Below are positions 1-38,595 of a DNA stretch of 38,829 nt, piece by piece (the first letter of the stretch is position 1; every line of letters begins with the position of its first letter). The translations under genes were made by a program, and so were the position numbers. Location: contig JAHBMJ010003899.1 in the NCBI GenBank assembly GCA_018398765.1, forward strand, positions 30,001 to 68,829, in the 5' to 3' direction. This stretch comes from Chromera velia. Its lineage: Eukaryota > Sar > Chromeraceae. Below the pieces are notes generated by a model that did no database searches, was not told the DNA's origin, and saw only the letters and a list, made by a program, of their open reading frames with translations.

Positions 1-894
1 GCGGACACCCCCCCAGGACGGGAGAAACGCAGATCCGTCGGGCTCTCCAGGCGGGAGTCCCGGGACCCTCTCCGTCTTCCCTGAGGGCTCCTTCCTCTTT
101 CACCCCTCCGCAAAGGAGAGAAGCCCCCACGGGCCCCGGCGGAGGGACTTCGGTCATGACTGTCCACTGAGGAAGACGAGTAAGACTCTGCTGCGTCGGA
201 CGAATCGGAGCTGACGGGACCAGCGCGTGTCTGTCTCTGATGGGCAACTGAAGCGCGACTGCTGTTGGAGACTTCACCGTCGTTCAGCCAACCACCAAAG
301 CCTTTGAAGCCACGTTTCGGTACTCCAGTTTTCTCAAATTCTTCTTCCCTTGCGTTTGCGTCCCAAGGTTTGACGGGAAAAACAACGCCTAGCTCGACGT
401 TGACAGACTTCAAAATCTCGTCTAACCTGGTCCACATTGCCTTTTGCCTTTCTCTTGACATCCCCTTTCCTGTAATTGAATACGCAGCTCTCTCCATTTC
501 GTTCTCTCTTGTCATCATTTGAAATGCCTGTCTCATGTGGCTGACATCAAAAACGCCCAAAGTCTTTTCGTTCAAAGACAAACGACGACAACATCTGCAG
601 ATACGTCGAGAACTCCATCGTGACTCTGCAACAGCCCTCTTTGAGGCCCGAAAAGCCAAAACCCTGCGAGGGTTGAAGTACTGTTTCAGTCTGATCAGAT
701 GCGCACTTTGTTTCAAACGCTCAAAGTCAATTGGCATCGAACTTTCGCCCCCCCTCTCCTTTTCCCCATCCACCTCCTTTTTGACAGCTGCCTTCTCCCC
801 CCGGAGACTCAATAGACGCACAGTCGCGGAAAGAATACTCTTCGAGGGGCGCATGTCGAGACTGGGCAGGTCGCGCTTTTCACTGAGCGATGCC
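1..894 (-). CDS. Exon for the cytoplasmic tail (partial, continues past the window edge)
   Basis: One frame stays open from an acceptor at about 894 (TATGCAG; an alternative acceptor at 882 keeps the same frame) to base 1, about 297 codons. The phase fits the transmembrane exon, joining TG to G to make tryptophan. The content is hydrophilic: a basic stretch ([20 protein letters not shown]), a mixed central part that may be folded ([20 protein letters not shown]), then serine/arginine-rich low complexity ([18 protein letters not shown]). No kinase, phosphatase or channel motif was recognised. A plus-strand open frame at 535-1032 is its antisense shadow. Confidence 0.65.
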
Positions 895-3114
895 CTGCAT
901 ACAAACACGCACAACAAAAGGCTCACTCAACAGAATGATCTGAGGATTTACAGTAAAGAAAGGGCAAGAAGCCAACTCGGCCAAGGGGGAAGCGAAGCGT
1001 CCGTGCGTCTACAAGCACAAAACGACTCATAGAGCACAAAACACCGGACCCAAAGAAATGCGGTAGGCGTTCTCATAAACCGACCTCACATAGATCGCGG
1101 AAAAGAAAATGAAGAGTTGACATACATCCAAAAGGTCTCAAAGCTCATGAGAATGTGTACCCATCCAGTCAAACAAGACCCAAAAAAGACCGTGCATTTC
1201 TGCCTGATTGACAGATGTTTCTCAAGGCCTGTATGTGGTGCACAGAAGGGAAGGACCGACGGAGACACTCACTCGGCCCCCCACATGGAGACAGAGACAG
1301 TTTTGCTGAATTGAATTGAGTGTCTGTCGGTTTGGATCCTGTCCTTCCTTCGCCTGGTCTCTCTCACATCCTCTTTCTCTCTCGGGAACAAAGAACGAAG
1401 GAAGCTGGGGCACTTACCAGAACAGCACACTCAAAAAGAGCACAAGCACCGTTCCGCTACTGAGAAGAAGCCAGCCAAAGTTCGCCTTGCCGCCGTTGCT
1501 GTTCTTTTCAGACTTCAAATGTCCAGAAATGCTGTCGACAGAAATCGGCGAATTCCGCTCCGGAGGTATATACTGCGATCATCCATATTCAGATGCATAT
1601 GCAAGCCTGCGGCGGCACGTGTTTGGTTTGGAGGGCGCTGTGTCGCATGATGTTTCCTGGCCAATCTCGACGACTTTTGCGCGATCTCTTTCGGCCTTCT
1701 TCCCGACTTGCCTGAATTAAGACGAACATACGGTTCGAAACCATCCAAGGCCTTGCGCCGTCAACTGCTGCAACAACTGACCTGACCGTCGCAAGCGGCA
1801 CTAAATTCTGTCTGTGTTGAGTCTCATTCCCGCTCTCTGACTCACTCATCCACTTAATTACTCACTCACTAAATCTCTCACTAAATGAGTCAGTCAGTCA
1901 GCTACCCACCCACTCACCCACTCAGCTGCTCACCTCCTTTCTCACTCGGCCCCAGTTTTCCTCTTCACTACATACTTGCACACGTCCCACTCAAGGGCTC
2001 ATCAGCTATCCGGCATTCACTCAGAAACCGATCACTCCCATCACATGCAGATTTTGTTCGATCGAGCCATGAACAACCGATCATCGATCCACTTCAAATA
2101 TCACGCATGCATGCAGTCTGTTTTTTGAGACGTCTGTCCCATGCAGCTCTCACTTTACAGACTCACCCTGAGTGCCAAAATCAGAGTCGTTTCGAGCACC
2201 CTCAGTTTGCACGTGCACAGAACATTTTGTCCCTCTGACTTCTCCTCCGGGCCCTGGCAGCCTGCAGGCAGGCACGTGCATGGATGTACGTATGTATGCA
2301 AACACACCACAAATACGCATTGCATCCATTGTGCAGACTCAGGTGCAGATAATCCATCTATGTGACACGTCCAGTGCAGGAAATGTTTACACCTGCACCG
2401 TCTGTGTTGCTCTGAAGAACAGACTTCACGGGAGTGCCTCTGCGTTGAGCATCCTTTGAACCCGAGCAGACGAACCCAAAAACTTAGTCGAGACCTCACG
2501 CACAGTCCCTTGCCGGGTGCGTCGCCTCGGTGGGCTGCTCAACATTCCACACTTCAGATGACCGAAAGGCCAAGAAAAAGAGAGAAAGGGTGAAGAAGTT
2601 GAATCATAAATATGAGAAACGGACGGCAAAATGTGTTTCATTCCAGCACAAATTGTTCTTGACTGTGCGCAATCCCAGATGCATTCACAGAAGTATGCTT
2701 TTCACTTTTGTGCACTTTGCAGTCGTTCGTGAGGCTCACGCCGCTACCTGAACCTCCACAACGGCTTTTTTCCTTTTTCAACCTACCTGATGAGGTCCAT
2801 TCCTCGTTCTGGACATCCATCTGGGCACACTCCTGAATCCACTCCCCTCCTGATATGCCCAGCTCGCCCTTGTAGAGAGATTCCAGCTGGAGGATCTTCA
2901 GAGCTACCGCGGTGGGACTCGGTGTGGGAAGCAACATGCTCAGCACACCGGCCGAAACGGCGTCCTCGTCCATCGCATCGCCCAGGAGACGGACAGAGGT
3001 GCGTCCGTCGGAGGAACGGGATGACGTCGATAAGGGCACCCGGCCTGAGCCCACCACCTTCCCGTCCTGCCGGGCAGCTGCCAGCACATCGACACACGCA
3101 AAGCGAAGATTACT

Positions 3115-3154
<40 letters not shown>

Positions 3155-5314
3155 CGCTTGCTCAGAGATAGATAGATAGATAGATATAGATATAGATATA
3201 GATAGATAGAGAGAGAGCGTAAATGAAAGAGAGAACGCGGTATACTGGCCGACCGACCGAGAGACAGACACACAAACAGACCGACAGACAGACACACATA
3301 CGGACCGACAGGCCGACAGACAGACCAAGTCTATGGAATCGCGAAATCCCAACCATCACGAAGCCGCCCTCCCTCGTGCGTTCGCCAAGAGAAGGCGCGG
3401 GTGAGGCTTTGCTTTCCACGAGGAGGAGAGAGAGCGGTCCCCCGCCCTGTACCGCAGTTGCTTGTGCGTCTTTGCCCAATGCACCGAAAACAGAATTGCC
3501 GATCAATTCCTTCCACGTCGGCGTACCTGCAGAGAGATGTATGACCCAAGAGTTGATTTTGAAAATCTATGACGAACAGCAAGTTGCATTTTATCGCTGG
3601 CAGATCAAGACCGAATGAGTGTGCAGGAAATGAGGAATGTAATATCGAAGAACACATGATGAATACGTGTGAATCAGATCTCCCGGGTAGAATCGACTGA
3701 GGGAGGCACTACGGACTGAGCGAGCAGTGTGAATGCAGCCAAGCAAATCATCTGGCGGATCGGAAAGGGAATAGCACCCCTGCTTAAATTGGAAGTGGTT
3801 TTCTTTATCTTCTTCCAAGACTTCTGAGCCTGTGTCTAGATCAAAGTCTTTTTCTCTCTTAGCCTCGACTCTTCCATCTTTTTTCTCTCCTTCTATTTCT
3901 CTATGTTTGTCCACTTTTCCTTCGCCTCAGCATCTTTGTGTGAGACCAACGCCATACGTATGATTTACAAGGGGAACAGATATGTTGTAAAAAAACGAAA
4001 GTAGACTGAAAGTCAACGTCGTCAGCGCAATCAAGTTTGCGTTTCGCCTGAAAAGAGAACGGGGTGACTTTCCTCCAATCGAGTCAGACAGACAGACAGA
4101 CCATACGGCGACGACCCTTCTGGTCTTGTGAGTGTGAGAGACGAATGGGGGGAATCCGCCTCGAGTGTCGTTGACCCATCAACAGAGTTTGCAACTGTGA
4201 TCGCGATCTCGTCTGTTTCCACCGTCGTACTACCAGGAGTTGACAGAACTGCAGCGAGGCTGTCCCCTGTACACAAAGAGAGAGAGAAAGAGAGACAAGG
4301 GACAACAGAGACGAAAAGCACAGTGAAGGTCAGTCTGTGTCTTCCAAAGGACAGGAGGAAGAATCTGAGAGAATTCATTTATGGCACATGAGAGCGCTGA
4401 GGGATTCTGCATCTGTCATATTCATCTCAGCAAGCTTCGCGTTATCTCCGAAGCCGTAGTGTCTTGTCATGTTATGTTTTCTCTTTTGACTAGTGTCGTC
4501 GAGACGTCAACTGAACTTTCTTTCAGGACTGTGCTTGAAAAACGGAAGTCCGATTCCTTGAAACATCCCTCTCCTGCCTGACACGTTGCTTCGATCACTT
4601 CATTCTATTGTAGCTGACCTACCTATGTCGTTCAAAGAATCCAAAATATCACCTTCAGAGGAGGCCTGACACAAAGGCAGAAAATTCATCCAGTCACTTC
4701 TATTCAGCGTGAAATATGCACGAAAAAAGCAAGAGCCGAGAGGCACAGATAGATGTTCACAGTTGTGGATTGATTGCCATGGGCCTTTTCTGAAAGCCCG
4801 CATCATACATGCTGCTCATCTTTCATCTCCCTCCTGGATATCCTCTTGGGCTTCTTCTCAGTTTCGGTTTCCCGCCGGTGTTCTGTTCATCTCACGGCAG
4901 ATATTTGCACAAACAATGAAAAGCTGGTGAATCACACAATATTCTAAAAGAACCATTGTGCTCCTTTTGTGGGCAGACCTTGGGGTATTTCCGACTGACT
5001 GGCTCTACAGAACAACAAGAAGAGAGAGAAGAAAAGACGGACCACGCTTTCAAGGGCCTTCAATGCGACCGTCTCGACAAGCGCTTGCTGGTCTGCTTGG
5101 GGATATAGAACGACGCAGGCGTCGAGTTTGTCGCTGAGTTCCTGCTGTTGGGCCGTCATCTGAGAGCACGCAGATGCAGACGCAAAGCCGTACACACAAA
5201 CAGAAATAGCGGCCCATTTTAGTGCTCTTTCGCCCACAGCTGTCAGCCAGTCAGTCAGTCTGTCTGTCTGTCTGTCTCTCCCTCTCTCTCCCTCGCAAGC
5301 ACACACACGCACAC

Positions 5315-5353
<39 letters not shown>

Positions 5354-6802
5354 AACCACTGAACGATTCAGTCGTGTTTTCTCCCTGCAGAAAAACTGTT
5401 TTTCTTCCTTCCACACATAAAGTCCTGTCCATTGTCACCGAATTTGGCACGCTTGTTGAAACAGAAAACAGAACAGGCAAACAATCCAGCACGTCTTGAA
5501 AGGTGCCTGCGTATGTGTTTACTCACGATTAGCCTCTCTGAACTCTTTGCCGTGGAGCGCGAAATTATTAGGCAGACAGAGTGAGAATGCCGGCAGATCG
5601 AGACTCATGACAACAACCAACCGTGCGCCAGCGACGTTTTCAAAGGACTCTTGCTCTCTTTCTGTCCGTCTCATGGCTGTGGAATACCTCTTTTTTTGGC
5701 TTTCTACGGACTCAGTTAGTTGTTTTTGCAAATAATGGGTGGGTCCTTCTGTTTTTGCTTACTGACCACCTCCTCCAGAATTGGGTGGTTCGGATTGTCG
5801 TTGGCCCACTGGTCGATTGCTTGCAATGCCGTTTCGTAGTTGCTTGCGACTTCATTGATTGGAGTGGTTCCGTTCGAGTTGCACAACTCGCCTAGCTGAA
5901 AGAGGGACTCAGGGATGAGAAAGAGAGGGACATGAAAAGGAAGCAATCGGAGAGAATACCTCCGGGCCTTCCTACATATCAATGAGTTGCATCACGCAGA
6001 AAGTTTGGAGAGGCAGCACAGAATTCTTTGTCTTTCTTACTAAATGGAAACCGAAAAACGCTGAGAGGAGGCGGAAGGGTCACCATGCTTGGAGACTCGT
6101 TGAAATTTTACAGGAATACAAGAAAGTCATCATGCCACGTGCTGTACAAATCGAACTAAGCTGAGGCATGCACCATTCCCTTGTCGAATGACTACGCAGG
6201 TGAGGTGAGAGACTCGTAACAACTGACGTCTGGGCCGGGCATTTCCTCTGCAATCATTCAGACGCACAAAACCGCAATAATAAAATTATTGATTGCGGGC
6301 GGAAACTCACTCATACACTTTTTTTGCATTCTGTCTCATTCCATGTCGCCTCTGTCTGCGCCGTGCTGCCATTCTTTTGATTGAACAGTATCTTCTTTTC
6401 TTAGTTCTCTGTTCGATCATCAGATATCCCCCCCCGCCCACTTGCCAAGCTGCTTTTCTTTCTTGAAACGGTCGTTATTGTCCTCCGCGGAGAGCTGACT
6501 CTGAGACAAAATGGATGATTAGGGTTCCTGCTTGTTGTCAGCTTGTTGGTCTCACTCCCATGCTGGTGGCCATCCTGATCCTTCTTCACTTTGTTTTCGA
6601 ATCAGATTCACGCTCTCAGTTAGACTTCTCAAAAGGCTGAGTACCTACCTACCTACCTGAACAGGCAACGCCATCCCCCTCATATCCGCTGTTGCAGCTA
6701 CAAGTAAAGGACCCTGTGACGTCAGTGCAGTTGCCGAAGGTGTTGCAGTTGTGCGTGCTCAAAGTGCACTCATCCAGGTCTGCAGAAATATGATGCGGGA
6801 AG

Positions 6803-6836
<34 letters not shown>

Positions 6837-7730
6837 GAAGACAGCATGCATGCATACGGAGAGAGAGAAATGGAAGAATTACACGGGCAGGCAGGATGGG
6901 TACCTGCATCATCTAGACGTTGCATGCCCTTGAGCTTAGCAGAAAGAAAAAAACGATTTTTCGATCCATCGAGAAACACATACAGACATCGAACGCCAAA
7001 AGGACACATACATGCTCGCCGCGGTGCGAGAAACCCGACCAGACCCTACTGCATCTTCCCCAGAGAAGACCGTTCTCCCTTCACTGAGTGAACAGGGCAC
7101 AAAGGAGAGTTCTACAAATTCATCCTGCCAAACTTACTTGTACAAGTGATACCGCCCCCAGAGTACCCAGCGTTGCAAGCGCAGGTGAACGACCCTGTGG
7201 TGTCTGTGCACGTCGCACCGCCGGTGTCGCAGTTGTGGACGCTGGTTGAGCACTCGTCAATGTCTGCAACACAAAAACACCAAGGAAAGAAGCATATGTC
7301 ATCGATCGAAGGGGGGAAAGCAGGAAGATTAAGGAGCGAAGCGCAAAGCGACGGCCACATTTACAGGTCTCACTGTAATCAGACTGACTTGCACATGCGA
7401 CGCCGTCTCCAGAGAACCCGACGTTGCACGCACATGTGAAGGACCCTGTGGTGTCTGTGCAGGTTCCGTTGGAGTGACAATTGTCAACACTCGTGGCGCA
7501 CTCGTCGACGTCTGCAGAGAAGTAGGAGGCGTATTCAAGGAAGGAGGTCGTGTAAGAAGTGAGACCCAAGTTTGCGGCACGCAGGATGGACACCATCATA
7601 CTGGGCAAATTGTCTCAGACAACTGTGTCTGAGAAACGGGGCACGATCCTTTTTCCCAAAGCAACTAGGACCGTTTCTTCCTTTGAAGAACCGACCGGTG
7701 CCGGTGGAACTCTGTGTGATGTCGTGCTCG

Positions 7731-7765
<35 letters not shown>

Positions 7766-9710
7766 GGTGTTGAGTGAGAAGTTTGTTGTCAAATTAGGCA
7801 TCGAAATCAGAATTCAAACTCACTTGTACAAGTGATACCGCCCCCAGAGTACCCAGCGTTGCAAGCGCAGGTGAACGACCCTGTAGTGTCTGTGCACGTC
7901 GCACCGCCGGTGTCGCAGTTGTGGACGCTGGTTGAGCACTCGTCAATGTCTGCAACACAACACAACACAAGCGCACTCAAGAATCATGAAGAACCAAGTC
8001 ATCGCGCGTGAGCTCAGTCCTCTCCCGCCACGTACTTGCAGAGTCAGGGTTTTTGACCAGAAAGAGAAGCGCACTTTGGCGGACAATCCCACCCACACTG
8101 ACTGACCAGCGCAGGTGATCCCGTCTCCAGAGAAGCCGACGTTGCACGCACAGGTGAAGGACCCTGTGGTGTCTGTGCATGCAGCGTCTCCGTGGCAGTT
8201 GTCAACCGTTGTTGTGCACTCGTCGATGTCTGAAGAGGAAAGCAGTAGAGCACGGGGGCCCACACGAGGCGTCGATTGAGCAAGCTGTGACTTTCAATTA
8301 GTACAAAACGAAGATCACGACGAGCGTGTAAAACAGCGAACAACCACGGCTGAAGAAAGCGACACCTCGAGTAGCGGTGCGTGCACTGCCTCCGTTCGAG
8401 AGCCGATCGATTTCCTCCTGGTTCCCCCGTTTTACGGTATTCCCATTTGACTCGCTTTCTTCAAATGTTTAAGGAGAGAACAAAATGTCTCGTCATGCAT
8501 CAACAAGCCATCTGAGAAGTGTGCACTCCGATAATTAAGCATTCATGAGCAAGAACAAACAATGAATTGCACGAAGTCGATTTGATCCTCTCAATCTAGT
8601 GCGTCGATCGAAAACAATAGGGAACATCCCGGAAGCATCGTGTCAGCGACTGCTTCATCTCATCAAAATTGATCATGTTGCAGAGATCGGACGTGCAAGA
8701 GATAATAGAACTCACTTGTACAAGAAATACCGCCCCCAGAGTACCCAGCGTTGCAAGCACAGGTGAACGACCCTGTGGTGTCTGTGCACGTCGCACCGCC
8801 GGTGTCGCAGTTGTGGACGCTGGTTGAGCACTCGTCGATGTCTGCAACACAACACAGAGCAAAGCGCATTCAAGAATCGTGAGATCAGTCCTCTCCCGCC
8901 ACGTACTTGCAGAGTCAGGGTTTTTGACCAGAAAGAGAAGCGCAGTTTGGCGGACAATCCCACCCACACTGACTGACCAGCGCAGGTGATCCCGTCTCCA
9001 GAGAAGCCGACGTTGCACGCACAGATGAAGGACCCTGTGGTGTCTGTGCATGCAGCGTCTCCGTGGCAGTTGTCAACCGTTATTGTGCACTCGTCGATGT
9101 CTGAAGAGGGAGAGAGGAGTGGAGGGGATTGAAGGGAAGGGCAAAAGGCGATCAGCCATACTGAATACACAGGAGCAACCCTTCTTTCTCTGCATTGATT
9201 GAGGACACCCGGTGGCGATACCATCACAGAAACCCCTCTTTGGACTGGAAGGACGAAGGAAGGCCAAAGAGGTGAGGGACAATCCCTGCAGGCAATGGGG
9301 GGAGCACCCACTCACTTGCACAGGTGATGCCGTCCCCAGAGAAGCCGGCGTTGCAGTCGCATGTGAAGGAATGGAAGGCGTCTGTGCAGGTGCTGTTGGC
9401 GTCGCAGTTGTGCGTTCCGAGTGTGCACTGATTTTCAGCTGCATCGAAAGCAAACACTCATCCACTCATTCAATCGCGTGTTGTTTCTGCCAAATGCATC
9501 CCGCGGTTCACTCCCACCTCTGCCATCAGCCAAGTTCCGTGCACCCTCATATGAATTCAAGGTCAACTCAAGACAGAGGGAGAAAGAGGTTTAGAAAGCG
9601 TGTAGCACACTCACACACAGAGACACAATTGCATGCTGGCACAAGCATCCGCATGCATGCCTTAGCTTCTTTCTCGTAGGGTATGAACGGTGCGTCTAGA
9701 CACTTACACA

Positions 9711-9747
<37 letters not shown>

Positions 9748-11853
9748 CCGGAAAATGAGACCACACACAAAATGAAAATGAAAATGAGACCCGGAAAATG
9801 AGTCCACCCACGTACGTGTGCACGAGACCCCGTTTCCAGAGAACCCGGTGTTGCACGCACACCCGAAGGACCCTGTGTTGTCTGTGCACGTCGCGTTGCC
9901 GTTGCAGTTGTGGACGCTCGTTCCGCATTCGTCGATGTCTGCACGAGAAAGTAAGCAGGAATTCAAACAGCATCAATAGTGACATGATAGACTAAAAAAG
10001 GACACCGAAGCAAACAATCAGACAGATACTCTCCAACACAGAGTCTCTTCCTTCGCCACTCCACGATCGATGAAAGTCTGCAACAGGTTCGTTGTGCTTG
10101 AGCCAAGAAAACAACGAAAGTAATACAAATAACAACGACCAGCGGAGAGGGAAAGCAAGGCACCAACCCACCTGTGCACACGAGACCCGTCCCAGAGAAC
10201 CCTGTGTTACATGCACACGTGAACGACCCCGTCGTTTCTGAGCAGGTTGCGTCGCTGTGACAATTATGGGCGCCAGTGGTGCACTCGAGAACATCTGCAT
10301 TCAGAGTGCAAATAGCCATACAGAGCTAGACCATCTCGATTGGCCGTCAAAGCACTCCGCTGGTTCGAATAAACTTGGAATGTGTGCGGTTTAATTTCTA
10401 GCACTCTATGCACAGCACAATGAAAACAAGCGTTCACACAGCGGAATTGAAAATACGTGCCGCAGGAAGGCCGCAGGGATCTCTTGACGTGAAAACTTGC
10501 AGAGATGTAACTGAACGAGCTGTAAGCGTTTTTCTTGAAGCAGATGAGTACTTGCATGATTTCTTGAATTCTGGGATCCCTTCTCTCTCGATCCTGGTCC
10601 CTTCCTTGGACTTGCTTTGGCGGATGAACCAGCTCCGATAGGCAAAGTCAACATTTAGATCTGCATGGAAAGAATACGCTTAATTGTGTCCTTTGTCCAC
10701 ATCCATCCGATTGCCCCAGCTGCCGCTGACCGACCGTCGCACGCTGTGTCGGCCCCTGAGGCGTCGTCATTCGCGGCGTTGGTCGTTCCCGATGGGCAAG
10801 CAGTGCAAACGTTGGAGGCCACGTATTCGTTTGTCCCGCAAAGCGTTGCTGCAAAGAAGCAGAGAGAGTCGGAGAGATGTGAAGGCACACCACTGGCCAT
10901 AACAGTCATTCGCCGGTCTCCGGTCAATTTTGCATCCGTTTCCCATGCAGCGAAGAAACCGATGCAGTCAAACTGTAAGCCGTGCACCAAGTGTCACCCA
11001 CCGACCGTCGCACGTTGTGTCACCGCCAGAGGCGTCGTCGTTTGCCGCGTTCGTGGTTCCCGCAGGACACGCAGTGCAGACGTTTGAACTCACGTATTCA
11101 TTTGCAGAGCACAACGTTGCTGCAGGACAGAAAGTATCCATACATACCTCTTTGGCCATGAACACTTCAAATTTCTTTGTCTGGTGGACAGAAAAGAACA
11201 GTTCGATATTTTTTAGTGGACACAAAAGAACAGTTCGAATTTTTTTGCTGGACACAAAAGAACAGTTCGAATTTTTTTGGTGGACACAAAAGAACAGTTC
11301 GAATTTTTTTGGTGGACTCAAAAGAACAGTTCGAATTTTTTTGCTGGACACAAAAGAACAGTTCGAATTTTTTTGGTGGACACAAAAGAACAGTTCGAAT
11401 TTTTTTGGTGGACACAAAAGAAGAGTTCGAATTTTTTTGGTGGACACAAAAGAACACTTCGAATTTCTTTGGTGGACACAAAAGAGGACTTTGCAGATCG
11501 ACAGGCAAGCAGAAAAGAGTAACGGCAAACGAAGACAACCGGAGAATAACTCAGTGCAATGTACATGAAAGGAACCGAAAATTTACCGTCGCAACTAGTG
11601 TCTGCTCCAGAAGCGTCGTCACTTGCCGCGTTTGTGGATCCCGGAGGGCAAGCAGTGCAGACATTTGAGCTCACGTATTCGTTTGCAGAGCAGAAAGTCG
11701 CTGCACGCACACCACTCACATTCACAGACACATGAATGAGTTTGGCTTTCACGCAGAGTGGAAAGGCCCGGTGTATCATTACAGCTCACTACAGCTCATA
11801 AGAACATGAAAAGCATTTTCGAGGCAATAAGGAGAAAGAAAGAAAGAGAAAGA

Positions 11854-11898
<45 letters not shown>

Positions 11899-14318
11899 GA
11901 AAAGAGAAAAAGAGAGACAGAAAGCAAGAGAGAGAAAGAGGGAGAGAGAGAGAGAGAGCGAGAGGGGGGGGCAGAGAGAGAGAAAAAAGGGAGGAAGGAA
12001 GGAAGGAAGGAAAGAAGGAAGGAATGGAAAAAGGAGGGAAGGAAGGAAGGAAGGAAGGAAGGAAGGAAGAAAGAAAGAAAAGAAGGAAGGAAAGAAGGAA
12101 GGAAGGAAAAAAGGAAGGAAGGAAAGAAAAGAAGATGCTTCCCGCAGAAGTCTGTCTCTGTATTCTCCTCTTACTCAGAGACCTTGCAAGCGTTCACCAA
12201 GGGCATGCTGCAGTTCTCGCAAGCTGACCGGTGCATGACGTGTCGGCGCCGGTAGCGTCGTCACCCGCCGCGTGCGTGGTTCCCGCAGGGCAAGCAGTAC
12301 ACACGTTGGAGCTCACGAACTCATTTACGCCGCAAAATGTCGCTGCAAATCGAAAGACGTGCACGTTGAGCAAATTAGGCTCCTTCCATACTTTTCCGAT
12401 GCACAGTCTTCTTGATGTTCAATCCTCTGTCAGGTTTTTTGTCTAGAAAGTGACACGGAATCAACACAAGAAAAGGCGTCGGTCGATTGACTGACTGTCG
12501 CAAGTAGTGTCACTGCCCGACGCATCGTCCCCTGCCGCATTCGTCGTTCCCGCAGGACACGCCACACAAGCGTTGGAGCTCACGCGCTCATTCGCCGAGC
12601 AGAGCGTTGCTGCAAAGCACTCGCATATGCAAATATCTTGAAGCAAAATGCGTTCACAGAAGATTTTGCACATGGAAGCTGGGCACAAGGGCCTGCCTCA
12701 CAATAAAAGCATGCGACTCCACGCCCAGACGGCTGAAAGCAGACTAGTAACGTAGAAATCGCCTCTCTTGCTCACTTACTATCGCATGAGGTGTCGGCTC
12801 CTGAAGCGTCGTCGTTGGCAGCATTTGTGGTTCCCGCAGGACACGCAGTGCAAACGTTGGAGCTCACGTACTCATTGGCTCCGCAAAGTGTGGCTGCACA
12901 ACACTCAAATACATGCACAGACCTGACCTCTCAACAGAAAAAACCGTGCAAGGCTAGTCGACCATTCGTGTTCTCTGTGCGATGGCTAATATCTCTTCAT
13001 GGTTTTGGACTAGAACCACTCAGCTGGGAATTTGTCCCGGTCGGAGGTTCCCCTTACAGAAATGCAAATCGATGGAATTCGGATACAGACAGGCGGTGTA
13101 GGGAGAGGAGCTGCGGTCTTGGAAAAGATTGTTGCTGATTCTGCGCTTCACCTGAAGCACAAAGGCTACACGGACTTGCACTCCTTATGCAAAATGTACT
13201 GTGATTCGCGTGTTTTCCTCCCTAACTGACCGTCACAAGACGTGTCTGCTCCCGAAGCATCGTCGTTGGCAGCGTTTGTTGTCCCCGCAGGACACGCAGT
13301 GCAGACGTTTGAGCTCACGTACTCATTGGCTCCGCACAACGTGACTGCACGTGAGTGCAAAACAGGCAGATAGGCAATAAGTTGTAGATCGCGGTGCTTC
13401 TCGATTTACTAACTTACCTGTCCAAACAGAAAGGAGGAACATTCATTCACTCCATTTGTTGAGTGATCTATTCGTCCCATGAGTAAAACAAACAAACAAA
13501 CGCAAGTCGATTGTAAACCAATTGATGAGCTCACCATCACAAGTCGTGTCACTGCCCGACGCATCGTCCCCTGCCGCATTCGTCGTTCCCGCAGGACACG
13601 CCACACAAGCGTTGGAGCTCACGCGCTCATTTGCCGAGCAGAGCGTTGCTGCAAAGCACGCGCACGGGCAGAATGAGCTCATGAATGCAGACGATACACA
13701 GGTTTGCCTTTTCGTTTCCCGCTGCGCTCGTTGAGAGAATCGAGGCCAGCATCCGATTCATTCCCTCTGACGGCGACGGGAAATAGAAATGATTTCATTC
13801 CCACTGACTGACCGTCGCAGGAGGTGTCACCGCCCGAGGCATCGTCATTTGCAGCGTTGGTTGTTCCAGCAGGACACGCAGTGCACACGTTGGAGCTCAC
13901 GTATTCATTTGCCCCACACAACGTGACTGCAAAAGAGGGAGTTGGAAGGGAGCACAGATGATCGAGTGCTCACACCTTTGGCGAAGTTCAACGACTACGC
14001 TTGTGAGTGTTTGTGGAGCGATATTCATGTGCAAGGGAAGAAGGGAGGACAGAGAGATATCATGGAGTAGCAAGTGGCTGCCTGGAAGCCATGCGCAAAG
14101 AAAAAAGTTTGCGTAATGAGGGATGAAGAAAGGGTCCAAATATGTCTGAGATCGAGAGAATCCATTCGATCCTTCCCAATCGACAAGCATCGTCTTTCCA
14201 TGAAGCCCCTCAAATTTTTTCAGCAGCCCACTGTGGTCTTTCTTTTCTCAAAAAAGGCCCTCTAGATACTCTTCCGCTTTAGTTCCTCACAGACACACAC
14301 ACACACACACACACACAC

Positions 14319-14353
<35 letters not shown>

Positions 14354-14378
14354 TAGACAGACATTCAGAGAGACATTC

Positions 14379-14409
<31 letters not shown>

Positions 14410-14477
14410 TCGAGAGACAGACGGACGGGGCGGATGGACGGACGGACAGACAGACATTCAGACAGACACACACACAC

Positions 14478-14508
<31 letters not shown>

Positions 14509-14521
14509 TTCAGACACACAC

Positions 14522-14552
<31 letters not shown>

Positions 14553-15428
14553 CACACACACACAGACAAACAGACAGACAGACAGACAGACCGTCACATG
14601 TCGTGTCTGCACCACCCGGATCGTCACCGGCCACATTGGTTGTCCCCGCAGGACACGCAACACACGCACTGGAGCTCACACGCTCATTTGCCAAACACAG
14701 GGCAACTGCAGGAAGAGATCATAGGAGACTCCGAGGAATGTACAGTAAAACATACTGTCCACAATGCACATGGGTGTGCATATCTTGACTTCCGGAGTCT
14801 GTTTCCCCATAGTCGGGACACAATAAAAGAAGACAGAGATTTGTAAACCAATTTGGCGCAGCTCTCTTGTTTTTTTCGATCGGTTGAAAGAGGCAGACGA
14901 TACTCAGACCGTCGTCCCCTCTTGGAGGGATGAAAAAAGATCCCTTCGCCTCTTGCTCGTAGGCTTGTTCTCGAGTATGTTTACTTTCACGCAAAGAATC
15001 GCAATACAAAATTGGATATTCAAAGTCCTCAAGATTTGCGCATGGTGCTGAACAACACTAAAGGTATTCCCGTTTGAGCTATATGTACAAATAGCAGCTC
15101 ATGCAACAGCTTAACAACACTGCAGCTGACCGCATGAGACCCCGTCCCCTGTATGTCCTGCGTTGCACGAGCAAGAGAAAGTACAGCTTGCCTCGTTGGT
15201 GCAGGCAGCGTTGGCATGACAGTTGTCTGTTCCCATCTCACAGACACCCACGCTGCCCGTGGAGAACCCTGCAGACAGACATGTCATGCGTGCATGGGAA
15301 GGAGGCGTTCGAGGGAGTGCAGTGATGAAAAGAAGCGAGCTGTTTAAAGAGTTGGAGAGAAAGGATACAAAAGCTAGAAATGGAACCACCCACCCACCCC
15401 CCCCCACACACACACACACACGCAGAGA

Positions 15429-15464
<36 letters not shown>

Positions 15465-17681
15465 CAGAGAGAGAGAGAGGAAGACCTTTGGACAAAAGAA
15501 AGATGTACGATCAAAAGAAGCCAATTAACCGACTGACCAGATACCGTGGCCAGACAGTCGGTCGTTCCCCCTGTAGACCCCACTCCAAGTTGTCCGTAAG
15601 TGTTCTCTCCAAACACCACCAGTCCGTCTCCTGTTGAAAGTATAGACTGTCCCATGCCTGCACTCACTTGAGCGATATCGGTGATTCCAGATACCCCCGT
15701 CACAGTTTGAAACGTCGTTTGGTCTGCCCCTGCGGCCGTGCCCAATTCTCCCGCGGTGTTGTCTCCCGCTGCTCTCAGGGTTCCGTCAGTCATCAGAACC
15801 AGCGTGTGGTCCTTCCCCAGTTCCACCCCTGCCACCCCTGATGAAATGACCTCCACCCATGTGGCCTGATTTGTTGTTCCCCCGGTACCCAAACGACTGC
15901 AGGTAGGCAGGCAGGCAGGCAGGAAGCAATTTTTGTGTGAAGAAGAAAGAAAGTGTCTGTCTGTCAAGGTTCTGAGAGACAAACAAAAGGGAGAACAGAA
16001 ATCACGACGTGTCTGGCGACGCAAATTGCAGAAGCTGTTCGAGGAGGCTGCATGTCAAGCTCTAACGGCGGTTCAGAGAGAAGTGTTGGTAAGAACGAGA
16101 CGGGTTCGAAAGAAGGCAGGAGGAATGAAGTGAAGGACAGGTGAGGATTGCAGATGGTTGGAAGGAAAGCCTGCAGGGGGAAGGGGTGAAGAGGAAACAC
16201 AGACGCAGGGCGGCAGAGGGAATCAAGAGGTAAAGAGGTAAAAGGCAAGCACACAGGTGGTCGAATGTCCAGATCAAGCAAGCAAGCGATCAATCAAACT
16301 TCCTCACCCATCGTCAGCTCTCCCAGTGACAAACAACTTCCCACTCGCAGTCACCACAGCCGACGCCTGATCTCCCATACTTCCCTGCACCACCTGTTCC
16401 CCCCCAGGCAAGCTACTCAGCACAGGGCTTAACTCCTCATACGAACTTGCAGAACTCGTTCCTGTCCCAAGAGCTCCCTCATACCCCCACCCCCACACAT
16501 ACAGGGCTCCCGTGTCTGTCCATGCCATACTTTGCGATTCCCCCGCCGATACTCCCACCACAGTCACGCTGTCCAGATCAGTGATTTTCACCGGACTAGA
16601 CTCGTCGCTAGTGCCCCCGAGGCCTAGCGCACCTTCGCCTCCCTCTCCAGTCACGTACACGTCTCCGTTGGTATCGAGAATGACGGTGTGCCGCTGACCA
16701 CACGCGACAGAGTCCACGCTGCTCATGATCGATTGCGGAGTGTTCACATTGGAGGTACTCCCCGTACCCAACCGCCCGTTGCTTCCTCTTCCTGCAGGCA
16801 TTGAAGCAGACAGACAGCGAGGCAGATAGGCAAGCATGAGCAGGCAAAGAGATGATCAAGAATGCAGACACGAGGCCGGAGAGAGCACGTGAAGGAGAGC
16901 GGCCGTCAGAATGTGGGGGTGCTGTGGTGATCCAGTAGACTGAAATGAGGGCATGCGTATCCGCATGCATGTTCGGATCGTGCTCTGGCTTTGATCTTGG
17001 CTTTAAAGTGACTGACCTGAGGAGACAAAACTCACGCAACGCTCATCCAGGCCGACATGCACTCGCCCACTCCGGAAAAGGGCTGTCGCATTATATGTGC
17101 TTCCTGATTCATCCAAGCAACCAACAGGGACAAGCAGAGACCACCCCTGGAGACACAAACTCCTACCAACAACCTATGTATCCCTTCCTTTTGTGTGCAT
17201 TTTGGTATACATATACAGGGCTGGCGTATACCAAAACTTCAGTCGGTCCTAGACTAACACTAGCAAGCCCACTGATTCACTTACCCCACGTATGCAATTG
17301 GCCTGCTGTCGTTACTGCCGCAGTGTGTGATTCTCCTGCACAAATCTTGTTCACGTTCGAGAGGGAGGTAATCTTGGTCCAGTCCGAACTGTCTGTCCAG
17401 CTGCCAGTCCCCAGGGATCCATGCGCTCCGTAACCTGCAGAGAGAGAGAGAGAGAGAAAGGGCGCGCATGCAAAGAACGGAACGGCACGCGGTTTCTAAC
17501 GATGATCCCAAATGCCACTCGAAAGAGTCATTCGAAGCCATGCAGCTGACCTACCTGTAGTCCAGACTTCCCCATTTTCATCGAGAATCACAGAGTGGTA
17601 GTATCCAGCAGCAACCGCATTAACCCCCAGACCCTCGACCCCTCTAAAGTAAAGGAAGAAAATGATGAACAAGAACTTCAT
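1..17681 (-). CDS. Large multi-exon surface receptor/adhesion-like protein: RCC1 propeller, Cys-rich modules, EGF modules, GAIN/GPS, one TM helix (partial, runs off left edge)
   Basis: Seen: about 35 minus-strand exons with GT...AG borders whose phases join. Proposed exons, 5' to 3': 17681-17555, 17434-17285, 16791-16308, 15896-15538, 15268-15131, ten 114-nt exons (14705 to 10735), ten 123/126-nt exons (10294 to 6657), 6247-6228 (weak), 5895-5763, 5676-5527, 5239-5043, 4665-4623, 4266-4102, 3526-3326, 3077-2787, 2453-about 2340, 1572-1418 and 894-1. About 2,000 residues are visible. Family knowledge: EGF and GCC2/GCC3-like Cys-rich repeats are extracellular, and GAIN/GPS domains sit just outside the membrane in adhesion receptors and polycystin-1-like proteins. 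Inference: a type I membrane protein with a very large ectodomain. The ligand is unknown. An automatic gene finder could split this gene; splice phase and module order argue for one. Least certain are the first exon, the 20-nt exon and the stretch between 2340 and 1573. Confidence 0.72.
1418..1572 (-). CDS. Exon with the single visible transmembrane helix
   Basis: The 155-nt exon starts in phase 0 after CGCAG and ends in phase 2 before a strong GTAAGTG donor. A polar lead ([12 protein letters not shown], then [10 protein letters not shown]) precedes a hydrophobic stretch, [20 protein letters not shown], about 20 residues long. This is a good transmembrane helix and places the EGF/RCC1 side outside the cell. 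Confidence 0.75.
2340..5895 (-). CDS. Membrane-proximal exons: GAIN-like region ending in a GPS motif
   Basis: Exons 5895-5763, 5676-5527, 5239-5043, 4665-4623, 4266-4102, 3526-3326, 3077-2787 and 2453-about 2340 join without a frame break. The first part is helical in style ([52 protein letters not shown]). Strand-like sequence follows ([20 protein letters not shown]), the order expected of GAIN subdomains A and B. The end carries a GPS-like pattern across an intron: C-x9-W-x3-GC ([11 protein letters not shown], then TSS-GC), then CRCKHFLHW. The usual HL(S/T) cleavage triplet is replaced by HFL, so self-cleavage is doubtful. The last exon's 3' border is unresolved, and the 5676 acceptor is weak. 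GAIN assignment is by pattern; GPS assignment is firmer. Confidence 0.6.
3118..3330. repeat. Compound microsatellite (CT)n, (GATA)n, (GACA)n
   Basis: CT repeats (3118-3152), GATA/GATATA repeats (3166-3210) and GACA/GACC-type repeats (3240-3330) fill the intron between exons 3526-3326 and 3077-2787. The last tract abuts the proposed donor at 3325. Confidence 0.9.
5246..5352. repeat. Compound microsatellite (CAGT)n, (CTGT)n, (CT)n, (CA)n
   Basis: Simple repeats lie in the intron just upstream, in the sense of the minus-strand gene, of the exon starting at 5239. Confidence 0.9.
6228..6247 (-). CDS. Candidate 20-nt micro-exon between the EGF array and the membrane-proximal region
   Basis: The last EGF exon ends in phase 1, but the exon at 5895 is open only in phase 0. 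A short exon after ATTGCAG at 6248 and before GTCAGT at 6227 repairs the frame and adds E-EMPGPD. Both borders use motifs seen elsewhere in the gene. This is inferred from phase bookkeeping; another unseen exon could do the same. Confidence 0.35.
6657..10294 (-). CDS. Ten single-exon calcium-binding-type EGF modules
   Basis: Exons: 10294-10172, 9938-9816, 9438-9316, 9100-8978, 8841-8716, 8229-8107, 7949-7824, 7511-7389, 7263-7138, 6779-6657. Seven are 123 nt and three are 126 nt; all are phase 1-1. Typical content is [18 protein letters not shown], then [20 protein letters not shown], with six cysteines and the D-x-DEC lead of calcium-binding EGF domains. In the exon at 9438 the lead is AENQC, and at 10294 it is DVLEC, so calcium binding may be weakened there. 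Acceptors are TGCAG or TTCAG; donors include GTGAGT, GTAAGT and GTCAGT. Such tandem EGF arrays form rod-like extracellular stalks. Confidence 0.9.
7735..7763. repeat. (GT)n microsatellite
   Basis: A near-pure dinucleotide run in the intron between the EGF exons at 7949-7824 and 7511-7389. Similar short tracts sit in other introns of this gene: (GAAA)n at 6800-6838 and (CA)n(GA)n at 9711-9747. Confidence 0.9.
10735..14705 (-). CDS. Ten single-exon Cys-rich modules (GCC2/GCC3 or ciliate surface-antigen type)
   Basis: Exons, all 114 nt and phase 1-1: 14705-14592, 13926-13813, 13648-13535, 13344-13231, 12893-12780, 12609-12496, 12342-12229, 11700-11587, 11119-11006, 10848-10735. Each encodes 38 residues on the plan C-x9-C-x2-C-x17-C, with core motifs [20 protein letters not shown] and [11 protein letters not shown]. 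The same spacing occurs in GCC2/GCC3-type repeats and in the repeats of ciliate immobilisation antigens, which are surface proteins. Two subtypes are visible: ER...NACVAC (exons at 14592, 13535, 12496) and EY/EF...NVCTAC (the other seven). Exons 12496-12609 and 13535-13648 differ at only a handful of bases, so copying was recent. Function beyond an extracellular disulfide-rich stalk is unknown. Confidence 0.85.
11167..11491. repeat. 32-bp tandem repeat, about 10 units, in an intron
   Basis: The unit is roughly tggacacaaaagaacagttc followed by gaattttttt and a GG/GC/AG variant; successive gttcgaat motifs are 32 bases apart. It lies in the intron between the Cys-rich exons at 11700-11587 and 11119-11006. 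Because 32 is not a multiple of 3 and the unit lacks stops, several frames on both strands stay open, which creates false ORFs. Confidence 0.92.
11829..12136. repeat. About 300-bp polypurine tract (GA)n, (GGAA)n, (GAAA)n
   Basis: An almost uninterrupted purine strand in the intron between the Cys-rich exons at 12342-12229 and 11700-11587; in the sense of the gene it is polypyrimidine. Lys/Glu/Arg-only ORFs here are translation artefacts. Confidence 0.92.
14288..14591. repeat. About 300-bp (CA)n/(CAGA)n microsatellite ending at a splice donor
   Basis: A CACA run followed by CAGA/GACA repeats with ATTC, GACG and GGGG interruptions. Its right edge is the donor of the Cys-rich exon ending at 14592; in sense orientation the intron begins GTCTGTCTG, which is the repeat itself. 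Confidence 0.92.
15131..15268 (-). CDS. Exon 5: EGF-like module linking propeller and Cys-rich array
   Basis: This 138-nt exon starts after CTGCAG, ends before GTCAGC and is phase 1 at both ends. It encodes one six-cysteine EGF-like module: [15 protein letters not shown], then [14 protein letters not shown]. The calcium-type DxDEC lead of the later EGF exons is absent; [11 protein letters not shown] stands in its place. This module is separated from the other ten EGF modules by the whole Cys-rich array. Confidence 0.8.
15403..15481. repeat. (CA)n(GA)n microsatellite
   Basis: Lies in the intron between the last RCC1 exon (15896-15538) and the EGF exon at 15268-15131. In sense orientation it is a CT/GT-rich tract. 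Confidence 0.9.
15538..17434 (-). CDS. Exons 2-4: rest of a seven-blade RCC1-type beta-propeller
   Basis: Exons 17434-17285 (150 nt), 16791-16308 (484 nt) and 15896-15538 (359 nt) join in phases 1, 2 and 1. They carry the RCC1 signature: a glycine-histidine core ([28 protein letters not shown]), then a strand ending in W/V/F-x-G, then a G.LG.G turn (GSLGTG, GRLGTG, GALGLG, GALGTG, GRLGTG, GELGTA, GQLGVG). With exon 1 this gives seven repeats of about 50 residues, the number needed to close an RCC1 propeller. Classical RCC1 proteins are nuclear or cytosolic exchange factors. Here the propeller is joined to EGF modules, so it is more likely an extracellular interaction platform. Acceptors are strong, and that at 17435 follows an intron end of pure CT repeats. 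Confidence 0.85.
17555..17681 (-). CDS. Exon 1: probable signal peptide and start of RCC1 blade 1
   Basis: The ATG at 17681 opens [14 protein letters not shown], a short basic-hydrophobic leader that fits a secretory signal peptide. It runs directly into RCC1-like sequence ([20 protein letters not shown]). The exon ends at 17555 in phase 1 before GTAGGT, and the next exon begins with two bases that complete a glycine. Exactly seven blades follow, so the propeller looks complete from this start. Alternative: the hydrophobic codons could be an intron pyrimidine tract ending in TTTAG, with the exon starting just after it at about 17646 and the true start further upstream. The DNA alone does not settle this. 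Confidence 0.55.
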
Positions 17682-25865: not shown

Positions 25866-28800
25866 TCAGGAGGCATGCATAAACTCAATCCTTTCTTTTT
25901 TTATAGAAAAGTTGAGAGACTTCAATCGAGCACTCTCCTTCTCAACCACCTTCTTCTCTTTAGGTACCCATTCAGTTCCTTTGTCCTTCTGAAGCTTGAG
26001 CTTTGTTTGCTTGTCTGCACACATCTTGTCGGTTAACACCCAAAAGACTTTTGCACGCAGTACACGCAGCTCCTGTCTGACATACTTTAAAAGACCGTCC
26101 ACACGAGGTTCTGCCTGAGCATAACCTATCTTGAGCTACTCCATGAGCGGACCAGAGTCCGTCATAAACTCAACTGGCACTTTCTTTCTCCAAAGCCTCT
26201 CTGCCAATTTCTTCCACGCAAAGGCTTTCTTCACCACATCTGAAAGAGCACACAATTCAGACGAAGTACTCGAAATCAACTTTTTCGTCAACTTTTTGCT
26301 CTTCCATGCAAACAGGTTTGACTCTCTCATATCAGGAACCTTTTCTTCTTCATTCATAATGAACGCTTCCATTCCAACCCTTCCTTCACATTTATGAAGT
26401 GTATACGATCCATCATAGAAAATGCGTAACTTCGGATTCTCGTAAGCAGTGAAATGCAAAGGCGCCTCAATGCTTTTCACATGCATCAACAAGCAAACTG
26501 CTCCCTCCACTTTCTCTGCAGAAGGCTTGAGAGACCAGTGAGACAATTCGCCGAACAAGAAAGAGATTGATGGAATTATGCGAGCAACTCATCCAACAAC
26601 CCCCATACATTTCTGCATGAGAGGCACGTAGTCTTTTCGATTCTCTTCTTCTTCTGGCGGGTCGATCAGACTTCCGTTTAACCTTCCTCCTTTCAGCTTA
26701 CCCTCATCAACATTGATCGCATCAAGATACTCCTTTTGTCCGATTTCGTATCCTTCTTTTGTTCTGCTCAGCGTCATGCTAATATAAATCATCTTTCCTC
26801 CTTCTTTAAGCAACTCAGGCTTGTCCATTTTCAATCGGGATTGCAGAGGGGAGAAGAGAGACATAGGGTCAGAAGAGAAAATAACAAGATCATCAATATG
26901 CATGATCATCACCCCTTCAATTTCCCCTCCCTTTCCTTCCTTCATAAAAATGCTCTCAATCACTTCTTCCCACCCCTCTTCTTTTGCTATTTATTTGAAA
27001 TGCCTCGTATAGAGGCGAGGGGCATCTGCAAGACCATACATTGCACGCGAAAGAGAAAGCACCTCACCTGCCTTGAGGCCATCAGGCGCACCTTCAAGCA
27101 TCTCTGCAGGAAGCTGCACAAAAACTTCATCATTCATTTCTGCTGTAACAAATGTAGTCCTCACATCTGACTTCGCGCAGTTCCATTGACGAGTAGAAGC
27201 AAAAGACAAAACAAAAAGCAAAGACCACCAGTTGGCAGTTCTACTGTATATCTCTAAGTCTTTTCTGTCATCTTGGAATCTTTTTGCAACCAACCTGGCT
27301 TTTGCCACCCTCTTTCCTTCCTTTAGCTTCCACGTCAAGACCCATCGTGTCTTGATTGCCTTTTTTTTTCTCGGCATTTGCCTGCCTCTTCTGAACACCT
27401 GCTCATCAACAAAGCTCTGAAGTTCCTTCAACATGGCGGATAAATGACTGCCTTCTTTCACCTCTTCCTTGCTGGCATCTATATGCCCCTTTCTTGGATT
27501 CACATGATTCCTTATCCTTTCGATCACCTCTGGATCGACCTTGACAATTCGAGGCAACGGCCGTCTCCTTTTCTCCTTTTCCTTTATTAGTTGCTGAAGT
27601 TTGCCCTGAAGCTCAGCAATTCTTTCCTTTGTCTTTTCCACCTCATCCTCTCCACCTACCTCCTGTGCTCCCTGCACCCCGTCTACCCCCTGTGCCGCCT
27701 GCACTCTGTCTGCCTCCTGTTCTTCCGAACCAAAATCTCTTCCAATCCAGACCCTATCCTCAGGGACAGGGATCTCTTCCTCCTCTACTTCTGCTGGCTT
27801 ACCGGCAGAGACCATCGATTCTCGTGCTTCTTTCTCCTCTCCTTCCCCCCCCCGACGCTGGACTGACAAACCCGGATTGGTGGTCCGAGGCTGCAGACCT
27901 GTGTCGTTTAAACCGGAGAGAGACGAAGAGAGCCCTGCTGACTGGGCACCACCCCTGCTAATATGCTGTTACCCAAGCTGCTGAACTGCCGCTCGAGGGA
28001 CGTCTGCATGAAAAATTGTGGAATCGAAAGAAGAAAAGAAATGTGTGGGCCCATCGCCCATCACTGACCTCTCTCCATCATCCATTGAAAAATCAGACCA
28101 AGTGTCTGCCCCCTCATTTCCCTCTTCTGCTTCCCACCCCCCAATCTGTGCACTCTGGGAGAAGCCACGCATAGACACAAGAGAGACTTGAGAGGGATGC
28201 ACCTTGAGAGGGCGCCATCCATTTCCTTTCTTCGCGATAATACAGACAACAGACTCACTCTCCACATGCACAAAGAATCCTTTGACCCCGTGCACTGGAA
28301 GAGAGTCCTCAGCCTTTGGCTGAGCCTCGAATAACACCACCCGATCTCCCACAGAAAGAGAAAAAATCTTTAAGACTTCCTTTCCCCCTGACTCGTCTTT
28401 CTCTGGAGATCTTTCTGTCTTTGCATGGACACATTTATTCAAATTCTGACAAACCCCCCGCCAAAACCACTTACTGCAATACCTGGGGAGTCCCAACTCT
28501 CGCAACAGCTTCCAGATTGCTCGCTTTACCGTTAGGTTCGCTCGCTCTACTGGGCTCTGTGTCTGAAGGGTATAATCTGCCCCCTTCTGGTGATGCAACC
28601 CATTCTGCTCACAAAATTCATCATACTTTTTGCCAAACTCACCTCCATTGTCTGTGTATACTATCTTTGGCCTACCTATTCTTTTCTCTTCATTCTTTCT
28701 GACTATCTGAATCAAATGTCTGACTGCTCTATCTTTCTTCCCAATCACTAACCCATCCATCTTTCCGTTCGCTGGATCTACAATCAGACTTACAGGGACA

Positions 28801-29777
28801 ACACCAGGAAGAAAAGAAAGGTTGTGAAAGAGACGAGCACCTTCTGTCTTTGCAAACTCTCCTTTTTTTGAACGAGAACGAATTCTTCTCATACACCTGT
28901 TTACTTCTTGACACACATGACAAAGACCAGCCATCTGTCTACATGCCTTCCACGTTGTTCATTTTACCAGGCCTCTCTCTCTTAAACTTAAAAAGAGACG
29001 ATTTCCTGTCGCATGGGCAAACCTGCAGTGCCACCCATAAAGCTCAGAGAGAGACATCGGTTCAGCGGAATCAGAGGAAGGAACAGAAAAATTCACCCCC
29101 CCCCTATCTTTCTTGCTCTGCCTATCTCCGCCTGACTCTTCCATACCTTTCGGCCTAGCTGATTCTATCTTGCCTTGCGGCCTTTCTTTTTCGATGTCTT
29201 TCTCGCTTTTCGGCCTATCTTCTTTTCCATTCCCTTTCTCACTGTCTGTCTCTACATTCACTTTCACGAAATCACACGCAAAACGAACACGAGACCCATT
29301 TATGCACGAAACATCATCATGGAGCACACGCACAACATGCACACCATCCTTTTCATAGAGCCGTGCTTTGATTTTGTTTCCATTTCTCTGCGGCAATTCA
29401 ACCCAAAAAGGAGGGAAAACTTTCTGAACTCGCTCACCCTTCAAAGAGACGAGAGTTTGTGGAACCTTTCTAGAGTAATATGCACCTTGGAGATATACAG
29501 GAGCCCTCTCTCCATCAATTGTCTCCACATCCACTTCAACCCCTGCTTCCTCTTCTGGCAAAAACTCACTTCCCGCTGCCTGCTCATAGTTGAAAACATG
29601 CCGTCTCTTCCATTTGACATTCATTTCAACATCACGCCCGAGAAGGGTGCGACTACATCCAGTGTCTGCAATCATATCATTCCCCCTTTCTCCCTTGGAC
29701 TCATCTTCTTCATCGAGACGTGCAAAGATGGAAAAACGATTTGCCCCCACACGATCCCATCCCTGCTGACGAGATAG
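25866..29777 (-). pseudogene. Copia pol (protease, integrase, reverse transcriptase, RNase H) with in-frame stops
   Basis: The frame is the same as gag throughout. Protease: MIADTGCSRTLLG near 29666. Gag-pre-integrase: LYGWHCRFAHATGNRLF. Integrase: LCHVC, then catalytic D in SLIVDPANG (about 28778), D in YTDNGGEF (about 28652) and E in SPVERANLT (about 28547), near the usual D-35-E spacing. Reverse transcriptase: TRWVLTWKLKEGKRVAKARL, EVFVQLPAEM, AMYGLADAPRLY, and catalytic MHIDDLVIF (about 26894; the family norm is YVDD). RNase H: YDGSYT, SSTSSELCAL, MTDSG. Stops at 28961 (TGA), 27971 (TAA), 26993 (TAA), 26591 (TGA) and 26138 (TAG) break it; no frameshift was seen. The final TGA at 25868 lies about 33 bases from the LTR. 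Confidence 0.9.

Positions 29778-33043: not shown

Positions 33044-38595
<5,552 letters not shown>

Follow-up and report, generated by a model that had tools for sequence, protein, structure and literature searches.

The closest described systems are the cysteine repeat modular proteins (CRMPs) of ciliates and apicomplexans, which are multipass proteins with ectodomains of the EGF-receptor type (PMC9670195). According to that account, Tetrahymena CRMPs have a GAIN domain detected by HHpred and five predicted transmembrane (TM) segments, those of Toxoplasma and Plasmodium have nine predicted TMs, and the proteins act in stimulated exocytosis and have been proposed as contact sensors (PMC9670195). 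Many diverse CRMPs have been reported in Chromera (PMC9815656). The chromerid 'CAST multi-domain' proteins are described as an amplified family with a Cys-rich ectodomain, a single TM, a coiled coil and a conserved cytoplasmic part, by the same source that names the Chromera organelle the chromerosome (PMC4501334). Among plants, CRINKLY4 receptors are described as combining a signal peptide with seven extracellular repeats that bear a distant relationship to RCC1, followed by a TNFR-like domain, a single TM and a kinase (PMC4617170); the listed classes of plant receptor-like kinases include an RCC1 class (PMC9603095). In Symbiodinium, RCC1 genes are expanded and are discussed as chromatin proteins (PMC4083563).

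The locus described here lies in a window of 38,829 nucleotides from Chromera velia (contig JAHBMJ010003899.1, hereafter C3462, positions 30001-68829), and the genome searched comprised 177.8 Mb in 4040 contigs. A gene on the minus strand was modelled as 34 exons from 17681 to 1, where it runs off the start of the window, giving 1907 codons uninterrupted by a stop, with 33 GT-AG introns. Its parts were ordered as signal peptide, RCC1 propeller, EGF, 10 Cys modules, 10 EGFs, GPS-like juxtamembrane domain, TM and hydrophilic stretch (Table 1). The mosaic noted from the letters alone (RCC1 head, 10 Cys modules, 11 EGFs, GPS-like motif and TM) was borne out by the model in combination with Pfam and a GPS HMM. 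The splice sites were picked to be AG/GT and in phase; the 34-exon model is a feasible gene model and not independent proof of one gene. Among these hand-chosen sites, the third intron position was C at 16 of 33 donors (GTCAGT, GTCTGT and the like). An additional exon (2551-2504) was tried and dropped, as was position 1512 for the start of the TM exon, since the paralogues pointed to a direct junction of 2787 with 2261 and to a start at 1572. The signal peptide in exon 1 was called by eye and hydropathy only; besides this, hydropathy identified one TM-like segment in the model, at residue 1593.

Table 1. Parts of the C3462 gene model, with coordinates in the window
Part	Position	Strand	Basis
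Exon 1: initiation codon and signal peptide [17 protein letters not shown], then first RCC1 repeat	17555..17681	-	Hydropathy peak at residue 3
Exons 2-4: remaining RCC1 propeller	15538..17434 (17434-17285, 16791-16308, 15896-15538)	-	Pfam
Exon 5: lone EGF module between RCC1 head and Cys array	15131..15268	-	EGF_3, E 1.1e-8
Exons 6-15: ten 38-residue Cys modules, 114 nt per exon, phase 1-1	10735..14705	-	PF23091 x10
Exons 16-25: ten EGF modules, exon length 123 or 126 nt, all phase 1-1	6657..10294	-	EGF_3 x10, EGF_CA x10
Exons 26-30: juxtamembrane domain	3326..5891 (5891-5767, 5159-5043, 4665-4623, 4266-4102, 3526-3326)	-	Like exons in C2956; paralogue matches to exons 29 and 30
Exons 31-32: remainder of juxtamembrane domain, with GPS-like motif [17 protein letters not shown]...CTCKLR that lacks HL[S/T]	2167..3077 (3077-2787, 2261-2167)	-	GPS HMM, shuffles
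Exon 33: linker YIPPE... and TM1	1418..1572	-	Hydropathy, paralogue sequences
Exon 34: first 297 residues of conserved hydrophilic loop; exon extends past window	1..894	-	Matches in paralogues

Other features were observed in the window and the genome. On the minus strand, the region 26994-28958 contained Copia-type retrotransposon-like fragments (RVT_2, E 3.1e-14, with a weak integrase core at E 3.3e-5, under the cut-off), and 35441-36436 contained an open frame with matches to helix-hairpin-helix (E 3.2e-5) and, weakly, to HhH-GPD DNA-repair (E 5.9e-5). Across the genome there were 58 matches to chlorophyll-binding proteins and 11 of alveolin type, which suits a chromerid, although each of the two models also matched one of 14 control genomes (Synechococcus, Caulobacter).

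The head was matched strongly by PF25390 (E 1.8e-67), by PF00415 in 6 stretches and by RCC1_2 in 7 stretches; the latter would fit the RCC1 repeats of a seven-blade domain. The closest solved chains were the RCC1-like propellers of HERC2 (E 7.7e-53) and UVR8 (about 1e-47). Both of these are intracellular, whereas the propeller of the C3462 gene comes after a signal peptide. A position of the RCC1 head outside the cell is supported by this signal peptide and by the fusion to disulfide modules. The sequence-only reading had presented the propeller as the N-terminal head of a protein with a signal peptide, which stood, and had supposed that such propellers are normally intracellular, a premise with exceptions in plant CRINKLY4. 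The head is not unprecedented, since CRINKLY4 receptors of plants carry an RCC1-like propeller and TNFR-like repeats outside the cell (PMC4617170). As described, CRINKLY4 is similar in having a signal peptide and a seven-repeat RCC1-like propeller ahead of a TNFR-like Cys-rich domain, a combination that was present here in the seven RCC1_2 stretches and the ten PF23091 modules. It is dissimilar in being single-pass with a cytoplasmic kinase, in having neither an EGF array nor a GPS, and in propeller repeats that are distantly related to RCC1, whereas the C3462 head is a strong RCC1 match carried on a different membrane part. Pfam identified no protein kinase in the part of exon 34 within the window, in nine paralogue loop frames or in the membrane part of a paralogue on C3805. 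Among the literature matches listed, no title concerning an RCC1-headed receptor in an alveolate was found; work by Templeton and Pain from 2016 is cited for chromerid extracellular proteins and may describe an RCC1-Cys-EGF-GPS-TM layout. Across the genome, RCC1 repeats were highly expanded, occurring in at least 150 places; this is a lower bound, as the best 150 of 381 candidates were scored.

The Cys modules, which the sequence-only reading called ciliate-antigen-like, were matched in 10 stretches by PF23091, a TNFR-like module (59.6 bits against a cut-off of 33.2). There were 11 EGF modules in total, one ahead of the Cys array and ten behind it (EGF_3, E 3.3e-80, 10 stretches). The 10 Cys and 11 EGF modules counted previously from the letters match the Pfam stretches, and the RCC1, EGF and Cys modules were all above their cut-offs. 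Some of the Cys and EGF exons are recent copies: exons 19 and 21 were 98% identical, exons 20, 22 and 24 were 96-99% identical, exons 8 and 11 were 96% identical, and intron 19 shared 98% identity with intron 21 over 100 nt. A short repeat, open in more than one frame, was observed on the minus strand in the intron between exons 13 and 14 (window about 11170-11550). A six-frame genome search with PF23091 returned a single place, below the cut-off, although this model marks all ten modules of the C3462 gene; it was replaced by a protein query, which returned 84 places. EGF modules were also highly expanded in the genome, in at least 150 places (best 150 of 1379 candidates, again a lower bound).

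The GPS-like motif required comparison beyond Pfam, which found RCC1 and EGF_CA on the joined protein and matched neither GAIN nor GPS in the C3462 gene, nor any other family in its juxtamembrane part (matches were listed up to E 10, and HMMER filters drop most above 0.1). GPS was matched by Pfam in two of five paralogue juxtamembrane pieces, at E 0.087 and 0.43, both below the cut-off. The genome contains canonical GPS motifs with HL[S/T] in other genes, at 18 places (L012-L029), and an HMM was built from 14 of these. Exons 31-32, once joined, scored 16.3 bits with this HMM, and five paralogues scored 9.1-12.8 bits, compared with no more than 0.2 bits on windows of the gene model that did not overlap the motif. 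When 20,000 shuffles of the C3462 segment were made, of which 19,087 were scored, none reached 16.3 bits and seven reached 9.1. The motif noted as a GPS is supported as a GPS relative by HMM and shuffles, but the HL[S/T] cleavage tripeptide is absent from it (CTCKLR), and the canonical cleavage site occurred at none of nine paralogue loci (L052-L060), all nine of which had CxC-x-L-R. Comparison of the whole domain with GAIN was weak and aligned mainly at the GPS end (hhalign gave a probability of 5.5% and a score of 25.3, where the highest of 60 column shuffles was 19.6); the juxtamembrane domain is GAIN-like by position only. RCC1 was located upstream of canonical GPS genes on C185 and C3575, and also on C3608, where the distance is about 30 kb; on the first two of these, the canonical GPS lies 3' of RCC1 and EGF arrays.

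Searches with the membrane core, using juxtamembrane, loop, membrane and C-terminal queries, identified 40 contig/strand groups on 39 contigs, of which 36 had at least two parts and 13 had all four. The order of parts was kept wherever it could be counted: juxtamembrane before tail (25/25), tail before TM (26/26), juxtamembrane before TM (33/33) and TM before the C-terminal exon (14/14). This count used all 78, 27 and 67 core matches and all 64 RCC1-head matches, a few of which match the EGF end of the query only; an earlier count with 50 of the 78 juxtamembrane matches and reduced RCC1 and EGF lists gave the same result for the core. In each of the 8 groups with an RCC1 match, out of 40, this was upstream of the core on the same strand, and no RCC1-head match on the opposite strand of a core contig was present among the 64. 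Seven groups had the head within 16 kb upstream (C3462, C2956, C3397, C3805, C3945, C432 and C3880, the match on the last of these carrying stops); the RCC1 match on C57 was 87 kb from the core and is probably unrelated to it. Six groups had both RCC1 and Cys matches, and in five of them RCC1 lay upstream of the array, the exception being C3575, where a single Cys module was ahead of RCC1; C3880 and C3608 add the same order as the five. For this comparison all 84 Cys matches were used, with RCC1, EGF and juxtamembrane positions picked by hand. In the earlier count, EGF matches (a reduced list of the best 150 of 1379) were on the same strand in 15 groups and on the opposite strand in one. C2956 repeated the complete series of RCC1, Cys, EGF, juxtamembrane, TM1, loop, TM2-5 and C-terminus, and C1852 had the closest head among the matches listed (62% identity), behind which came a match to the exon 5 EGF, then a Cys array and an EGF.

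Since splice sites were chosen for phase, the repetition of this order among paralogues provides the independent support for one gene. In-phase joining had been offered previously as the argument for one transcript; the conclusion of one gene gains from the paralogue order, while phase itself is not independent proof. That the parts belong to one gene is well supported in so far as paralogues keep their order on one strand. The possibility that there are two neighbouring genes, one for a secreted RCC1-Cys-EGF protein and one for a separate GPS-TM protein, can draw on the fact that phase agreement was built into the model, but is highly improbable given the shared order and strand of the paralogues and an EGF-to-juxtamembrane exon junction that can be joined in phase.

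The start of the loop in exon 34 matched 26 other places in the genome (E 4.8e-48 to 0.0535), nine of them with E <1e-24, in open frames of 320-1287 codons, part of which may be unspliced flanking sequence. Nine of the frames (L052-L060), when read, had a common block around PRR or PKR, with HDRSP in 8/9 and APMAI[VI]AP[LF]DVSR in 4/9; Pfam gave two matches only among them, at E 0.05 and 0.079, both under cut-offs. In the paralogue on C3805, the loop was followed by an exon with four TM-like segments by hydropathy and then by a C-terminal exon, and nothing in Pfam or PDB matched this membrane part. Exon 34 of the C3462 gene runs from the window into an adjoining 5,000 N, where its predicted TM2-5 region would lie; the far side of the N is abutted by C3462:24827-25003, which is 64% identical to the C-terminal exon of C3805. 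Because of the exons on C3805 and the C-terminal match at the N, the gene most likely runs on through the N and the protein is probably multi-pass, not single-pass, with TM2-5 predicted from collinear paralogues and from hydropathy in one of them (C3805). A single-pass topology was dropped on the same evidence. Of the 'TM + tail' in the sequence-only reading, TM1 remained; the supposed tail is the start of the conserved loop, and the family points to a multi-pass protein.

The layout resembles that of CRMPs, a likeness drawn from published descriptions. It includes Cys-rich and EGF modules in a large modular ectodomain, a CRMP trait that was present by Pfam, with a putatively GAIN-like motif and, as predicted from paralogues, several C-terminal TM helices (five are described for Tetrahymena). 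The C3462 gene departs from CRMPs in the RCC1 head, the long module arrays and the long loop predicted between TM1 and TM2. The CAST proteins, as described, are similar in their Cys-rich ectodomain, amplified family and conserved cytoplasmic part, but are single-TM with a coiled coil, whereas the C3462 family appears to be multi-pass. A claim that the gene represents a new class of adhesion receptor is weakened by the presence of the core in 40 groups within the same genome and by a layout that resembles CRMPs. Since the layout matches CRMPs, a mechanism involving exocytosis is proposed, in which belief and doubt are about evenly balanced: one gene would encode a large multi-pass surface receptor, and its likeliest output would be regulated exocytosis, as for ciliate and apicomplexan CRMPs. 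The ligand bound by the propeller would sit on an adjacent cell or on a surface, and the Cys/EGF stalk would hold the propeller clear of the membrane. Binding or force would be relayed by the GPS-like domain, which stays uncleaved, to the loop and the membrane part with its five helices, and the loop may recruit cytosolic partners. Any link between the chromerosome and this family is speculation.

Other functions can be envisaged for a multi-pass protein of this kind. A polycystin-1-like mechanosensor or channel partner would share the inferred topology of GPS, TM1, large loop and TM2-5. Polycystin-1 has eleven helices, however, against one plus four TM-like segments here; no PLAT was found in the first 297 loop residues of the C3462 gene or in the nine paralogue loop frames (to E 0.1), no channel family was found in the C3805 membrane part, and none of 16 PKD_channel matches in the genome were on contigs of the 40 core groups, which together make this function improbable. 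The modular ectodomain and the GPS-like motif beside TM1 are likewise reminiscent of adhesion GPCRs and of signalling through G-proteins. This is very unlikely when the cleavage site HL[S/T] is missing, the one plus four TM-like segments (four from C3805) are divided by a long loop, no 7TM family was matched and the topology, as predicted, is not 7TM. A mainly structural role, as a cell-wall or cyst adhesin or a mating-type recognition protein with no link to exocytosis, is rather doubtful, but would agree with the repetitive, recently duplicated Cys and EGF exons and with the large paralogous family; against it stands the family-wide conservation of the loop and the membrane core, which argues for signalling.

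If the core of the regulated-exocytosis receptor proposed here is indeed CRMP-like, the Chromera genome offers numerous natural variants of a contact sensor of which most apicomplexans have few copies, and the exchangeable heads would show what the core can couple to. It may be suggested, tentatively and against the balance of probability, that these expanded, uncleavable GPS-like five-helix contact receptors, some of them with an extracellular RCC1 propeller as the head that binds the ligand, correspond in a free-living organism to the CRMP that senses invasion in apicomplexans, and that heads were already being exchanged on a single membrane core before parasitism arose. The proposed receptor would also add to plant CRINKLY4 a second case among eukaryotes of an RCC1-type propeller that serves as an extracellular binding head beside TNFR-like Cys repeats.
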